DNA from: Desulfonauticus sp.
GTDB taxonomy: Bacteria; Desulfobacterota; Desulfovibrionia; Desulfovibrionales; Desulfonatronovibrionaceae
Length of the DNA: 52,325 bases
Direction of reading: 5' to 3'
Assembly (NCBI GenBank): GCA_030950395.1
Contig: JAUZRP010000061.1
Coordinates: 1-52,325 of the forward strand
Below the pieces are notes generated by a model. The model saw only the letters and a program-made list of their open reading frames with translations, ran no database searches and had not been told where the DNA came from. The first letter of the stretch is position 1; every line of letters starts with the position of its first letter. The translations under genes and the position numbers were made by a program. This document shows positions 23,406-36,008 of the stretch, in pieces.

Positions 23406-23483
23406 TGGCGTCCCCAAGGGGATTTGAACCCCTGTTACCGGCGTGAAAGGCCGATGTCCTGGACCTGGCTAGACGATGGGGAC
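23406..23483 (-). tRNA. tRNA-Glu (TTC)
   Basis: The minus strand begins GTCCCCA and ends TTGGGGAC-G-CCA with an encoded CCA. The anticodon arm CGGC-CTTTCAC-GCCG gives anticodon TTC. The T-arm GGGGTTCAAATCCCC is intact. It is 13 bp downstream of tRNA-Gln and co-transcribed with it. Confidence 0.96.
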
Positions 23484-23496
23484 GCATACAAATATC

Positions 23497-23570
23497 TGGC
23501 TGGGGGACAAGGATTCGAACCTTGACTAACGGGGCCAGAACCCGTCGTCCTGCCATTAGACGATCCCCCA
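23497..23570 (-). tRNA. tRNA-Gln (CTG)
   Basis: The minus strand begins TGGGGGA and ends TCCCCCA-G-CCA with encoded CCA. The anticodon arm ACGGG-TTCTGGC-CCCGT gives CTG. D- and T-arms are intact (AAGGTTCGAATCCTT). Confidence 0.96.
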
Positions 23571-30201: not shown

Positions 30202-30279
30202 CGGGATGTGGCTCAGTCTGGCTAGAGCGCAGCGTTCGGGACGCTGAGGTCCGGGGTTCGAATCCCCGCATCCCGACCA
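30202..30279 (+). tRNA. tRNA-Pro (CGG)
   Basis: It begins CGGGATG and ends CATCCCG-A-CCA with encoded CCA. The anticodon stem CAGCG/CGCTG encloses TTCGGGA, giving anticodon CGG. The T-arm CGGGGTTCGAATCCCCG is intact. The 5' C is normal for bacterial tRNA-Pro. Confidence 0.96.
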
Positions 30280-30284
30280 ATCTA

Positions 30285-31634
30285 TTACTCCCCTTTTAAT
30301 TGCACAGGCCTTCTACCAATGCTAAAATAGGCAAATCCCATCTGTCCTAATAAACTAGGATTGTATAAATTTCTACCATCAAAAATTAAAGGAGCTGTTA
30401 ATTTTTCTTTAATTAGGGAAAAATCTGGATTTCTAAACTGATTCCATTCTGTTACTATGGCCAAAGCATCTGCTCCTTCTAAGGCAGCATATTGATCTGC
30501 TACTATTTCTACAAAATGATTATCTTTTAATAAATCTCTAGCGTTATCTCCAGCCACAGGGTCAAAAGCCCTTACTTTCATGCCTAAAGCAGTTAATCTT
30601 TCTATTAGGACCAGAGAAGGGGCTTCTCTCAGGTCGTCTGTATTGGGCTTAAAAGCAAGCCCCCATAACGCTAGAGTTTTGTCTTTTACTCCATTTTGGG
30701 GTTCAAAATAATTAATAATTTTTAAAGCCAAAATTTCTTTTTGCAAATTATTAACTTTATCCACAGCCTGTAAAAGCAATGGATCATAACCAGAATTTAA
30801 GGCCGTGGCTATCAGAGCCTTTACGTCTTTGGGAAAACAAGATCCGCCATACCCTACTCCTGGATAAATAAAATGATATCCTATTCTATGATCAGAACCA
30901 ATGCCCAAACGCACATCCCCAACATCTGCGCCTACTCGCTCGCAAATATTAGCAATTTCATTGATAAAAGAAATCTTGGTAGCCAACATACAATTAGCAG
31001 CATACTTGGTCATCTCAGCGCTTCTAATAGACATAACAATTAATTTATCTCTACTCCTGGCAAAAGGAGCATACAAGGTTTTTAAAAGCTCAGCAGTCCT
31101 TACGTTGTCCGTACCCACAATCACTCGATCTGGCTTCATAAAATCATTAACAGCATCTCCTTCTTTTAAAAATTCAGGATTAGACACTACGTCAAATTCT
31201 ATGTTTACTCCTCTTTTTTTCTGCTCTTCTTTAATTAAACTCCGCACTTTATCTGCAGTACCAACAGGCACAGTAGATTTATCCACTACAATTTTATAAT
31301 CTTGCATTAACCTGCCCACATCCCGAGCTACTTGATAAACATAAGATAAATCAGCACTTCCATCCTCTCTGGGAGGAGTTCCAACACAAATAAAAACAAA
31401 CAAACTATCTCTTAATCCCTCCTCCAAATTAGTAGTAAAAAATAATCTGCCATCTTTATAATTTCTTTGAACCAACTCATCTAAACCAGGCTCATAAATA
31501 TGCACCTCTCCCTGTTTTAAACGCTTTATTACCTCTGGATTTATATCCACACACACTACCTTATTGCCCATTTCAGCAAAACAGGCAGCACTAACTAAAC
31601 CAACATAACCCGTACCTACTATACAAACATTCAT
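30285..31634 (-). CDS. UDP-glucose 6-dehydrogenase
   Basis: The enzyme oxidises UDP-glucose to UDP-glucuronate for surface polysaccharide. The 449-aa protein starts [20 protein letters not shown], a Rossmann fold, with [26 protein letters not shown], and the catalytic motif [12 protein letters not shown]. The C-terminal domain has [24 protein letters not shown] precedes the ATG at 31634, so the upstream in-frame start is not used. It converges with tRNA-Pro. Confidence 0.97.
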
Positions 31635-31851
31635 TTCCCAATCTCCTTTTAACAAAAAAATTATTACTTAATATACATTTAACAAAGTCTATCCTAAAAG
31701 GTCAACCTAAACAAGCTCTTGATTTTTATAACTCTATATGCAATCTAAAAATTTCTTAAAATCACAGGCGTTCAAAGTTCAAAACCAAAGGTTAAAATTA
31801 AACATTAAAAAAATAAAAAATCTAATTTTTCACGGCTACGTCAGTCAATAA

Positions 31852-34023
31852 ATGGACAAAAAAGAACTAAAATCCTTTTTTTTATTTTCACTGCCAATTT
31901 TAGTGGTCTTAAGTTTATTATTTTTTCTAGGACCTGAAAATAATTATCTATTTTTTAAAAAATTCAGTACCAGCCATCCCAACCTGACCTTGTTTTTTAA
32001 ATTTATCTCTAACTATGGAAATCCTCTCTTCTATTTGGTTTATCTTTACTTTTTAGTAACAGGCGTAAAACAGCATAAAAAAGAATTAATATACCTGAGT
32101 TTATTTTATCTGGTAGTTCAATTAAGTATTTCTTTTTTAGGGGTAAGGATTTTAAAAATTGTTTTCGCCAGAGAAAGGCCAGAACTAGGCTCTGCCTTTA
32201 CATTTTTTTCCTTTGCAGCAGTTAAAAATTCCTTTCCATCTGGCCACACCACAGAAATTTATGGAGCTACTTTACCCCTTGTGCTTATAAAAAAAACTCC
32301 TTATATCTCTTTAGGACTTGGCCTATTAGCGGCCACATTAGGGTTTTCAAGGATTTATTTAGGGCAACATCATCCTTCTGACGTGCTGGCCGGGTATATA
32401 CTGGGCAGTATGGCGGGTTACACAATTTTTTACTTATGGAGTAAAACAGTGCGAAAAAAAAGACCAATTTTCAAACTAAACACTTTTATAGAATTTATTA
32501 CTTCCTATCCCTTGTTAACACTAACTATTATCTATTGGAGTAATTTTATTTTTAGCCTTAATACCCGAGCTTTATGGTTCTCTGACGAAGTAAGATATGC
32601 CAATGTGTTTGAAAACGTTTTAAAAGCTAAAAAATGGCTCGTCCTGTATTTAAACGGACAACCCTATCCTGATAAACCACCGCTCTATTTTTGGTTTTTA
32701 AGTGTCTTATCTTATTTTACTCATCTAAACGATAAAACAATTTTATTTCTGGGCACTGCAATAAGCGGTTTTATTTATATTTGTCTTACCTATTTTTTAG
32801 GAAAATACATTTTAAAGGATAAAAAGAGAGCCTTTCTAGCTACCTGTTTGTTATTAAGTAATTTTTACTTTTTAGCTCTTATTCACTACATAAGAATGGA
32901 CTTACTATTTGCCTCTTTTATTTTAGCTTCCCATCTTATGCTCTATTTTTACTTTGAAACCAAACAAACAAAATATATTTATCTTACGTTTTTTCTGTCT
33001 TTTTTAGCCCTTCTCACCAAAGGTCCTTTGGGAGTTGTATTTCCTCTTTTAACTTTTATAACTTTTGCCTGCCTACAAAAAGAATTTAAATTACTTATAA
33101 ATAAGCAAGTAGGCCTTGCTTTAGGATGTTTATTGCTGGGAATATTTATCTGGCTTAGCGCTATCTATTGGGTAGAAGGGAAAGAATTTATCTACAATTT
33201 ATTATACAAACAAACTTATAAAAGAGCTGTTCACACCTGGCATCATCCTCATCCTTTTTACTATTATTTTTTGATTTTTCCTTTAGTCATATTACCCTGG
33301 TCATTAGCTATCACAAAGATTAAATTGTCATCTAATTTTAGCAAAGATGAAAAGTTTCTACTCTGTTTTTTTGGGTCAGGCTTTATTGGTTTATCGCTAG
33401 TAAGTATAAAAATAGCAATATATCTTCTACCTTTATTTGCTCCTTTTTTCTTACTTTTTAGCAGAACTTTCAATAGCGAATCCCCTATGCTGGCCAAAAT
33501 TTTAGGCTACTTTTTTCTAGCCATAGGTATTATTTTGCCTGTCTTAAACTTTTTTCCTCAAGTACCCTGTAAAGCAATAAATTATATCTGGATATTTGGC
33601 ATTATGTTAATTGCTCTTGGTACGTTACTGCTCAAAACCACCCCTCCTAAAAAACATCTACCTATTGTTTTAAGCTTGTTGTGCCCCTTAATCTTTATTT
33701 ATACGGCAAGGTATCTGGCCCCTCACCTGGACCCAATTATGAGTCCCAAGGAACAGGCTCAAATTATAAAGCAATACATAAAAAAGGGTTATAAACCTCT
33801 AGCCTATAAAGTATACTCTGGTATCTATACCTATTATGCTGGTTCAAATATCGAAGAAACCAATGACTTTAATCAGGTTCAAAAAAAATTAGAACAAAAT
33901 TATCCCATCCTCTTGATTATACCTGAAAAATACTTTAATAGATTTAAAAAACAATTGTCTAACCTCAAAGTGGTGGATAAACATAAAATTGTGGAAAAGA
34001 ATTACTATCTTTTATTAAAATAA
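31852..34023 (+). CDS. PAP2 phosphatase fused to ArnT-like glycosyltransferase
   Basis: This is a polytopic membrane protein of 723 aa combining two enzymes. Residues 1-200 are a PAP2 lipid phosphatase with all three motifs: KIVFARERP (102-110), PSGHTT (129-134) and SRIYLGQHHPSD (166-177). Residues 210-723 are a GT83/GT39-like transferase of the ArnT type, with SDEVRYANV (244-252, catalytic Asp) and NGQPYPDKPPLYFW. Such transferases use polyprenyl-phosphate sugars. The fusion could couple sugar transfer to dephosphorylation of the lipid carrier; this coupling is inferred. The next gene follows by 12 bp. Confidence 0.88.
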   Translation: MDKKELKSFFLFSLPILVVLSLLFFLGPENNYLFFKKFSTSHPNLTLFFKFISNYGNPLFYLVYLYFLVTGVKQHKKELIYLSLFYLVVQLSISFLGVRILKIVFARERPELGSAFTFFSFAAVKNSFPSGHTTEIYGATLPLVLIKKTPYISLGLGLLAATLGFSRIYLGQHHPSDVLAGYILGSMAGYTIFYLWSKTVRKKRPIFKLNTFIEFITSYPLLTLTIIYWSNFIFSLNTRALWFSDEVRYANVFENVLKAKKWLVLYLNGQPYPDKPPLYFWFLSVLSYFTHLNDKTILFLGTAISGFIYICLTYFLGKYILKDKKRAFLATCLLLSNFYFLALIHYIRMDLLFASFILASHLMLYFYFETKQTKYIYLTFFLSFLALLTKGPLGVVFPLLTFITFACLQKEFKLLINKQVGLALGCLLLGIFIWLSAIYWVEGKEFIYNLLYKQTYKRAVHTWHHPHPFYYYFLIFPLVILPWSLAITKIKLSSNFSKDEKFLLCFFGSGFIGLSLVSIKIAIYLLPLFAPFFLLFSRTFNSESPMLAKILGYFFLAIGIILPVLNFFPQVPCKAINYIWIFGIMLIALGTLLLKTTPPKKHLPIVLSLLCPLIFIYTARYLAPHLDPIMSPKEQAQIIKQYIKKGYKPLAYKVYSGIYTYYAGSNIEETNDFNQVQKKLEQNYPILLIIPEKYFNRFKKQLSNLKVVDKHKIVEKNYYLLLK

Positions 34024-34035
34024 GGAGCAGCCACA

Positions 34036-34422
34036 ATGGAGGTATTTTCTATTTCCACATCAGCTTTAAAAAGTTCTAGCCTTGCTGAAGAAGTAAGTGC
34101 CAATAATATAGCCAATATTAATACTCCAGAATTTAAAGCCAGCAGAGTAGATCTGGAAACTGGTCAAGACGGTAAAGGGGTGGTTGTATCCCAGATAAGT
34201 CAAGATCAAAACCCTGGAGCCATATCAGAACAAATCGAATTACAACCTAATGCCCAAACAGGTCAAATAGAACAACAAATAGTATCCAAAGAAACAAGCA
34301 ACACTGACCTTGCTCAAGAAATGGTAAATCAAATCCTAAATGAAAGGTTTTTTGAAGCTAATACCAGACCCATCTCCACTTACGATTCTATGCTAGGTAA
34401 TTTTATCAACATCTTTGCCTAA
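34036..34422 (+). CDS. FlgC-like flagellar rod-family protein
   Basis: This 128-aa protein starts with the flagellar rod/hook N-terminal pattern (STSALKSSSLAEEVSANNIANINTPEFKA) and ends with the C-terminal helical motif (NTDLAQEMVNQILNERFFEANTR). The size resembles FlgC or FlgB. No other flagellar genes are nearby, so it may be an orphan paralog. TAAGGAG precedes the ATG. Confidence 0.8.
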   Translation: MEVFSISTSALKSSSLAEEVSANNIANINTPEFKASRVDLETGQDGKGVVVSQISQDQNPGAISEQIELQPNAQTGQIEQQIVSKETSNTDLAQEMVNQILNERFFEANTRPISTYDSMLGNFINIFA

Positions 34423-34659
34423 TCCCTTCACTCAACCTACCAAAAAACTAAACTTATAAAGCGTGAGGGAACAGGGGTTGTAATTTATCTTCAACTCTGT
34501 TGTCTTGCAGCAAAAACTTCCCTATCTGAAATCCCTACCTACGAGCTATAAAACCAAAAATTTTAGCTCTTTAAACCTTAATTTTTTACTAAAAAACCTT
34601 GACTATTTTTTTTTTGTTTTTATTTATAAAAATGAAAATTAATTACAGGAGGTGAAAAA
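34423..34659. other. 237-bp region between the rod-protein gene and Hsp20 cluster
   Basis: No reading frame is supported. AGGGAA and TTCCCT segments (about 34465 and 34528) could pair over a 60-nt stretch, but no known RNA family is recognised. The promoter at 34599-34630 lies at its right end. Confidence 0.4.
34599..34630 (+). promoter_or_regulatory. Promoter candidate for the Hsp20 cluster
   Basis: TTGACT (34599-34604) and overlapping -10 candidates in TATTTATAAA (34621-34630) give 16-20 bp spacing. There is no sigma-32-type CCCAT box and no CIRCE repeat. AGGAGGTG follows just before the first Hsp20 ATG. Confidence 0.5.
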
Positions 34660-35070
34660 ATGGTTATAGATTTGGCAACATTTTATGATTTACCAAAGCA
34701 ATTTGATCGTATTTTTGACGAATTTTTACGTCCAAGTGTTATAAGTCAAAAAAGAATAGCTTATCCTGCTATTAATATTTATGAAGATGAAGACAATTTA
34801 TACGTTTATAGTGAGCTTCCTGGTCTTGATATAAACGATGTAGAATTAACACTCACGGACGGAAGTCTAATTTTAAAAGGAGAAAGAAAATCAGAGCAAG
34901 GTAATTATTATAGGCAAGAACGTCCAACTGGAATTTTCCAAAGAATTATCAATTTAAATATTCCTATTGATGCAGATAAAATTAAAGCAAAGATGAAAAA
35001 TGGACTGTTAGAAGTAATTCTTCCTAAACTAGATATAAACAAACCTAAGAAAATACAAATAGAAAGCTAA
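34660..35070 (+). CDS. Small heat-shock protein (Hsp20), first of three
   Basis: This is an ATP-independent holdase chaperone of 136 aa. The alpha-crystallin domain runs from about residue 38 (AINIYEDEDNLYVYSELPG) to KMKNGLLEVILPK. The conserved A/G-x-L motif is GLLEVILPK. The C-terminal extension is short. It is preceded by AGGAGGTG. Confidence 0.92.
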   Translation: MVIDLATFYDLPKQFDRIFDEFLRPSVISQKRIAYPAINIYEDEDNLYVYSELPGLDINDVELTLTDGSLILKGERKSEQGNYYRQERPTGIFQRIINLNIPIDADKIKAKMKNGLLEVILPKLDINKPKKIQIES

Positions 35071-35087
35071 ATAAAAGGAGGCCAGCT

Positions 35088-35456
35088 ATGACAAAAGAAA
35101 TAAAAAAGCAAGAAACTCCAAAAGAAATTATATTTTCTCCTTACACAGATATTATAGAAAAAGAAGATGGTTTCTATATTGTAATGGATTTACCTGGAGT
35201 GGACAAAGATAATTTAGATATAGATTTAAAAGAAAATGAATTAGAAATTAGAGCAAAAATAAATTGGACCAAACCAGAAAAAGCAAAAGATATCCACGTA
35301 GAGTTTGTGCCCGGAGAGTTTAGAAGGCAGTTTACCATTTCTGACGTGGTAGATAAAGAAAAGATTAAAGCAAATCTAAAAAATGGCGTGTTAAACTTAT
35401 TCCTACCTAAAGCAGAAAAAGCCAAACCTCGCAAGATTAAAATCGTTGCCGAATAA
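35088..35456 (+). CDS. Small heat-shock protein (Hsp20), second of three
   Basis: This 122-aa member has a charged N-terminus (TKEIKKQETPKE) much shorter than usual and an alpha-crystallin domain with FYIVMDLPGVDKDNLDIDL and NGVLNLFLPK. The short N-terminal arm may alter oligomer assembly with its neighbours. The gap from the first gene is 17 bp, with AAAGGAGG, so they share a transcript. Confidence 0.92.
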   Translation: MTKEIKKQETPKEIIFSPYTDIIEKEDGFYIVMDLPGVDKDNLDIDLKENELEIRAKINWTKPEKAKDIHVEFVPGEFRRQFTISDVVDKEKIKANLKNGVLNLFLPKAEKAKPRKIKIVAE

Positions 35457-35461
35457 AAACA

Positions 35462-35487
35462 GCACCTGCAAAATTTTTTGCAGGTGC
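35462..35487 (+). terminator. Strong hairpin between second and third Hsp20 genes
   Basis: GCACCTGCAAAA and TTTTGCAGGTGC pair over 12 bp with almost no loop; the effective stem is GCACCTGCA/TGCAGGTGC. No long T-run follows, so it may be a partial terminator or an RNA-processing or stabilising structure that sets different expression for the third gene. Confidence 0.55.
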
Positions 35488-35552
35488 TTCCAATAATTGC
35501 CTTAACCATATAAAATCGTAGAGCTTAGCAAATAAGCCAAGGAGGTGAAGAT

Positions 35553-36008
35553 ATGTTAGAAAAATTTGTTCCAAGTTTAAGACAAGCAGAAAATCATCTC
35601 ACTCCTACCAAGAGTATATTTGATCTATTTGAACAAATGGATAGAATGTTAAGGGAAGCCTGGCATGGGGATATGGAAATTTCTTTTGCTCCAGCAATAG
35701 AAGTAAGGGAAAACGACGAAGAAATTATCGTAAAAGCTGAATTACCAGGGTTAGATAAAAAAGACATAGACGTTCGTCTGGAGAATAACTATCTTATCTT
35801 GCAGGGAGAAAAGAAAAAAGAAGAAAAGAGCGAAAAAGACAATATCGTTCGTATGGAAGTAAGTTATGGCACTTTTTACCGGGCTATTCCTCTGCCTGCT
35901 GAAGTAGATGAAAGCAAAATAGAAGCCAAGTATAAAAAAGGCGTTCTAACCATTAAATTGCCAAAAACAGAAAAATCCAAGTCTAAAAAAATAGCTATTG
36001 AAAGTTAA
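35553..36008 (+). CDS. Small heat-shock protein (Hsp20), third of three
   Basis: This is a 151-aa classical class A Hsp20. The N-terminal arm has IFDLFEQMDRMLREAW, the alpha-crystallin domain starts at FAPAIEVRENDEEIIVKAELPG, and YKKGVLTIKLPK is the A-x-L motif. The length and the FDLFEQMDRM motif are closest to the standard bacterial form. It has its own AGGAGGTG site. Confidence 0.94.
   Translation: MLEKFVPSLRQAENHLTPTKSIFDLFEQMDRMLREAWHGDMEISFAPAIEVRENDEEIIVKAELPGLDKKDIDVRLENNYLILQGEKKKEEKSEKDNIVRMEVSYGTFYRAIPLPAEVDESKIEAKYKKGVLTIKLPKTEKSKSKKIAIES

Follow-up and report, generated by a model that had tools for sequence, protein, structure and literature searches.

Passages of PMC8306577 describe an arnT-lpxE-eptA cluster in Xanthomonas and report that ArnC-like and LAB_N-like genes are linked to arnT in other species. 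In rhizobia and their relatives, lpxE/lpxF are treated together with rgtD/F/E in part of PMC7663294, and excerpts of that paper and of PMC6581854 indicate that the LpxE/LpxF and RgtD/RgtF/RgtE enzymes replace a lipid A phosphate with galacturonic acid. The excerpts of PMC6581854 also mention galacturonic acid instead of phosphate in Aquifex pyrophilus and state that LpxE enzymes cleave lipid A phosphate and also undecaprenyl pyrophosphate (C55-PP). Both enzymes and their side-by-side genes are already known, and a single chain holding the two represents this known pair in fused form; no description of a single-chain PAP2-ArnT fusion was found in open-licence full text.

We analyzed a 52,325-bp stretch of Desulfonauticus sp. 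DNA (the window), taken from a draft assembly of 172 contigs, in which one open reading frame carries a PAP2 phosphatase followed by an ArnT-like glycosyltransferase. The Xanthomonas cluster, as far as the passages cited describe it, likewise has an ArnT-like gene adjacent to a PAP2-type gene, but its genes are separate, lie in the reverse order and include eptA, and the comparison is one of gene content. The rhizobial LpxE/LpxF and Rgt enzymes, in the excerpts named above, are separate proteins and are likened to the window's protein by reaction. We give an even chance to the reading that the open reading frame is a conserved module of an LpxE/UppP-like PAP2 protein and an ArnT-like protein, brought into one chain by a gene overlap one base longer, and that it likely remodels lipid A or a related envelope lipid.

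The fused frame starts with an ATG at 31852 and runs uninterrupted on the plus strand for 723 aa (31852..34023). Its PAP2 half (residues 1-202; 31852..32457, +) was recognized by PF01569, fold and profile, and the Pfam PAP2 domain at residues 84-198 scored 63.9 bits (E 1.6e-17) against a cut-off of 27.2. The three catalytic motifs of the PAP2 superfamily were complete at residues 102-110 (K102-x6-R109-P110), 129-132 (PSGH) and 166-177 (S166-R167-x5-H173-x3-D177). The glycosyltransferase half (32449..34023, +), of the GT-C fold, was recognized by PF13231/PF02366 and by structure, with PMT_2 at residues 274-440 (E 1.4e-8, 35.5 bits, cut-off 26.1) and PMT at residues 221-433 (E 2.6e-6, 27.6 bits, cut-off 22.7). 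Its motifs were also complete (DEVRYA at 245-250, DKPP at 274-277 and RMD at 348-350), and its C-terminal part (about residues 633-723) was mixed helix-strand. A chance open reading frame was ruled out by homology across both halves. The initial annotation had claimed that both halves keep their full catalytic motifs in one polypeptide, and the motif scan, the Pfam matches and the single frame bore this out. A promoter scan of 31600-34700 found 8 candidates compared to 12.5 expected.

An AlphaFold2 model of the 723-aa product, built from a 27-row alignment, reached a pLDDT of 86.5 and a pTM of 0.78, with a less confident block (63) at residues 201-210, which bear the joint. Residues 211-723 matched Cupriavidus ArnT (5f15) with a Z of 33.7 over 493 aligned residues (rmsd 3.8, target 541), so that an ArnT-like GT-C fold with its C-terminal domain was present; the best structure other than ArnT was ALG12 (Z 22.4). 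Residues 1-202 matched PgpB (8bm3, Z 16.8), Aquifex LpxE (6ebu, Z 16.1) and YodM (Z 15.8). No match with E <=0.001 was found for the predicted model in a viral fold library. From the helices of the model and the positions of the motifs, the N-terminus would lie inside, followed by six helices, with the K102/R109, PSGH and SR..H..D loops outside and the chain back on the cytoplasmic side near residue 202. The basic character of the joint, KTVRKKRP (198-205), suits a position on that side. The helix after the joint is predicted to lead outward to the DEVRYA/DKPP loop; in this topology both active sites would face the periplasm and the fusion point would be topologically sound.

The two congeners of the window's organism (G012 and G027), which complete the genus of three searched genomes, carry separate overlapping genes, so the fused form was found in one of the three. 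In both, the transferase gene lies in a shifted frame and starts with an ATG after a GGAG; this ATG precedes the end of the stop codon of the PAP2 gene by 30 bases. A simple in-frame loss of a stop codon was ruled out for this genus, as the two genes of the congeners occupy different frames. When aligned with G012, the junction stretch of the window was one base longer, and this extra base puts the two halves into one frame. The GGAG (32438-32441) and a GTG (32449-32451, residue V200) at the position of the congeners' ATG are both retained in the fused frame (32438..32451, +), so the transferase may also be started internally at V200 (GTG 32449). The old PAP2 frame of the window stops after eleven residues (KQCEKKDQFSN); the corresponding tails of G012 (KKCKKHNMLTS) and G027 (KKCQQLAPSKK) are of equal length, with a Cys at the same place. 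That the old frame stops at the distance seen in the congeners suggests that the change is either very recent or an error.

It is a serious possibility, short of an even chance, that the extra base is a sequencing or assembly artefact and that the organism has two overlapping genes like its congeners. The split genes of both congeners, the retained stop distance and Cys position beyond the length change and the draft state of the assembly all speak for an error, and scanning for odd fusions enriches such errors. However, indels appear to be infrequent in this assembly. Among the window genes with a match in the G012 stretches, which are the genes this check covers, 20 others were compared and each aligned over at least 95% of its length, nearly end to end, arguing against an indel-rich assembly. 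Furthermore, in the alignment as read by eye, the length difference lies just before an A-rich stretch and not in the A8 run, which fits poorly with a simple homopolymer miscall; by the same inspection, a miscalled A8 length was unlikely to be the only cause, since the GGAG and the start codon would leave the transferase frame. The initial annotation had named an error joining two genes as what would refute it; the 20 end-to-end genes weakened this concern, while the split congeners and the one-base difference sustained it. On balance we consider the fusion somewhat more probably present in the cell than absent, in which case the length change would be a real mutation.

The gene pair itself is widespread in the order. 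Matches were found in 87 of 199 order genomes, and in at least 67 of the 199, besides the window, a PAP2 half lay beside a transferase half on one contig and strand (counted by hand): in 54 as two matches, separated by up to about 1.1 kb, and in 13 as a single match interrupted by one or more stops. Five more order genomes (G186, G089, G116, G192 and G187) had a PAP2 half alone or on another contig. Among the order matches listed, the window alone had a single open frame across both halves. At the level of the phylum, 90 of 395 genomes matched, and six besides the window (G314, G251, G411, G508, G543 and G432) had one open frame over both halves.

A set of named loci was made of the best 80 of at least 383 relatives; as these were chosen by similarity to the query, the following counts are not prevalence figures. 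The profile scan placed both domains in one open reading frame in 15 loci, PAP2-first in 20, GT-first in 12, both present but apart in 6, PAP2 only in 21 and GT only in 6, and the two domains were fused or adjacent in 47 of the 80. The PAP2-first loci comprised 13 from Bacteroidota, 4 from Desulfovibrionaceae, 2 from Deferribacterota and 1 from Sulfuricurvum. Ten of the 12 GT-first loci belonged to Pseudomonadota, and an ArnC-like GT2 gene was present in these same ten; the transferase match of one of them, L124, is weak (24 bits). Both domains were present in all ten fusions scanned with Pfam (nine of the 15, plus L067).

The deltaproteobacterial fusions (L064-L069, L090-L098, L100-L103, L106 and L110) likewise carry PAP2 ahead of the transferase within a single open reading frame, whose length is mostly about 710-770 aa. 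Two changes between the split and fused states were required by a tree of 61 transferase domains (based on 528 of 742 columns, a quick method with SH-aLRT support only; copies L090, L091, L092 and L098 and the contig-end fragment L097 left out). The window paired with the split gene of G012 (97) and then with G027 (100), within an 18-row group of the order and Deferribacterota (100), whereas the 16 fused rows formed one clade (100) on the far side of the tree from the window. By this sequence comparison, the deltaproteobacterial PAP2-GT fusion arose independently of the window's, and it is conserved within its clade, in contrast to the fused form in the genus. Several of these "Deltaproteobacteria" records are placed in Myxococcota in one scheme, while G314 and its kin fall in the window's phylum in the genome search. 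The model of one such fusion (L067) had a pLDDT of 83.5 and a pTM of 0.85. In four f63 genomes the fusion was flanked by genes which in L067 encode an aldehyde dehydrogenase, a rubrerythrin-type protein, an aminotransferase and a proline dehydrogenase. The database search proposed in the initial annotation thus recovered the same architecture, as a clade-conserved fusion (15 of the best 80 loci, and the tree). Of the two, the deltaproteobacterial form is the more useful to study; the fusion in the window must be very young, unless it is an artefact.

To place the PAP2 half among known enzymes, a profile of the window's PAP2 half and nine relatives was compared with solved structures, and the best matches were Aquifex LpxE (6ebu, E 8e-12) and B. 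subtilis YodM (E 2.9e-11). Against three E. coli references, the same profile scored 51.0 bits for YbjG, 24.2 for PgpB and 13.6 for LpxT. Together these scores tend to favor a phosphatase over an LpxT-type phosphotransferase, and in sequence the PAP2 half appears nearer to LpxE/YodM/YbjG than to LpxT. The three-part PAP2 motif, the fold and the profile match are common to the window's half and to the LpxE and YodM/YbjG-type phosphatases; unlike them, it is joined to a transferase. The best NCBIfam models on the PAP2 side were both undecaprenyl-diphosphatases, SepP (E 5.6e-14, 52.5 bits, cut-off 250) and PRK11837 (E 4.7e-12, 46.2 bits, cut-off 229), with scores far under the cut-offs.

These matches would also suit an undecaprenyl pyrophosphate phosphatase that feeds undecaprenyl phosphate to nearby sugar-charging enzymes, a role we regard as rather unlikely. 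YbjG was the top scorer of the three E. coli PAP2 proteins, the leading NCBIfam models were diphosphatases, albeit far under cut-off, and C55-PP is cleaved by LpxE enzymes too, according to the excerpts of PMC6581854. However, the genome also holds a separate BacA/UppP and a second PAP2 gene. Moreover, ArnT-type enzymes release a monophosphate carrier, not a pyrophosphate, and the polyprenyl carrier is charged with sugar in the cytoplasm, whereas both active sites of the fused protein would be periplasmic. The monophosphate product and the presence of BacA make recycling of the carrier the less likely role. The idea in the initial annotation that the fusion channels the carrier is chemically weak on the same grounds (the monophosphate released, and the separate BacA/UppP and second PAP2 gene).

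We judge it improbable that the PAP2 half is an LpxT-like phosphotransferase acting on the very lipid A phosphates used by the transferase, either as its competitor or to control it, a relation reported for LpxT and ArnT of Pseudomonas aeruginosa. Passages of PMC13142001 state that the PAP2 enzyme LpxT co-purifies with ArnT there, but E. coli LpxT received only 13.6 bits from the family profile, compared to 51.0 for YbjG and 24.2 for PgpB.

We return to the preferred reading, a phosphatase coupled to a sugar transferase. The substrate of the PAP2 half would be lipid A or a related lipid, from which it takes off a phosphate; with polyprenyl phosphate as the sugar carrier, the GT half would then supply the sugar. 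The two reactions would take place outside the inner membrane, on its periplasmic side. The acceptor, the donor and the order of the two reactions are those we infer, and the best reading, by analogy, takes as its model for the swap the separate LpxE/LpxF and Rgt enzymes of rhizobia, along with the galacturonic acid that replaces phosphate in Aquifex pyrophilus. Gene fusions point to jointly working proteins, and the two independent fusions and the conserved pair suggest coupled lipid dephosphorylation and sugar transfer at the outer face of the inner membrane, in agreement with the LpxT-ArnT contact in Pseudomonas aeruginosa described in those passages of PMC13142001. The deltaproteobacterial single-chain proteins would open this coupling to in vitro tests. 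A broader proposal, which we put forward as doubtful, is that PAP2 and transferase work as a unit, exchanging a phosphate of lipid A for a sugar, that this unit is kept across several phyla and was fused at least twice, once in an ancestor of the deltaproteobacterial clade and once very recently in the window, and that a single slip separates the two forms in the genus, where cells may produce both.

The transferase half resembles ArnT in residues as well as in fold. Functional residues of ArnT were taken from passages of PMC8306577 and PMC5377068 and mapped by eye. In the alignment with E. coli ArnT, D245-EVRYA, K275, D350, K390, R458 and Y524 were common to both, so that the acidic/RYA motif and the Lys, Asp, Lys, Arg and Tyr positions of an ArnT-like protein were all present. 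The full-length fold is that of the ArnT structures (5ezm/5f15). The window's protein differs from ArnT in its N-terminal PAP2 half, in an Asp before K275 (DKP instead of the EKP of ArnT), in its score with the ArnT model NF009784 (E 6.5e-27; 94.3 bits, under the 567-bit cut-off, so that it does not score as an ArnT equivalog) and in a genome that lacks ArnD. A search for ArnD found none in the three genus genomes, with a positive E. coli control, and the two parts of ArnA matched separate genes, with products of 333, 320 and 363 aa; a fourth match was weak. The aminoarabinose (L-Ara4N) route is therefore unsupported; the initial annotation had proposed modification of a phosphate and then a sugar on lipid A, of which the two-step reading remains sensible.

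A divergent gene of the UDP-glucose/GDP-mannose dehydrogenase family (30285..31655, -; PF03721/PF00984/PF03720), a possible source of UDP-glucuronate, neighbors the fusion and would fit a uronic acid as the sugar. It also adjoins the pair in both congeners, G012 and G027, in the latter at the end of a contig. Among the mapped loci outside the genus, only L067 has a related piece, which sits at its edge, some 8 kb away from the fusion.

On contig 10 of the window's genome, an ArnC-like GT2 gene (242 aa) lies beside a 96-aa gene for LAB_N, the N-terminal domain of lipid A biosynthesis proteins (L173:7187-8283, -). This GT2 could supply the polyprenyl-phosphate sugar. LAB_N and the ArnC-like GT2 occur in a single row with both genes of the pair in L084 and L088, which are Deferribacterota loci; in the second of these, from Calditerrivibrio, the row contains GT, PAP2 and GT besides them. 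LAB_N was matched in 30 of the 199 order genomes (27 above cut-off) and was present in the window's genome, G012, G027 and G007 and absent from G063. Only 4 of 63 pair-bearing genomes of family f5 had a match, one of them above cut-off, so LAB_N is not a fixed partner. The view of LAB_N and the ArnC-like GT2 as fixed partners was dropped, given the absence of LAB_N from most pair-bearing genomes of the order.

At the gene overlap of both congeners is the sequence GGAG-A7-TG (L003:1530-1542, +; L004:3061-3073, -), at which a -1 slip would join the two proteins. That ribosomes or polymerases do slip on this A7 tract to give both separate and joined proteins, with the window merely fixing the joined form, is highly improbable: the PAP2 frame of G012 and G027 reads AGA AAA AAA TG (A_AAA_AAA) with the transferase in the -1 frame, but the tract also encodes Lys residues common to both congeners and overlaps the transferase start, the GGAG is nearer to it than the stimulatory spacing of 6-17 bases given in passages of PMC4066793, no stable RNA fold was found at the window's junction (z +1.81), and of the 35 loci of the order listed, only 5 had seven or more consecutive A within the final 60 bases of the PAP2 gene.

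Several other features were observed in the window. A flagellar basal-body rod-type protein of 128 aa (Flg_bb_rod, Flg_bbr_C; 34036-34422, +) begins 12 bases past the fused frame and occupies the same place in G012. It is followed by three consecutive HSP20 small heat-shock genes (34660-36008, +), each with its own best match in G012 and in the same order. The tRNA genes include tRNA-Pro (30202-30279, +) and a tRNA-Glu and tRNA-Gln pair (23406-23570, -), the latter two underlying a stretch that is about 90% alike at several sites in the congeners.
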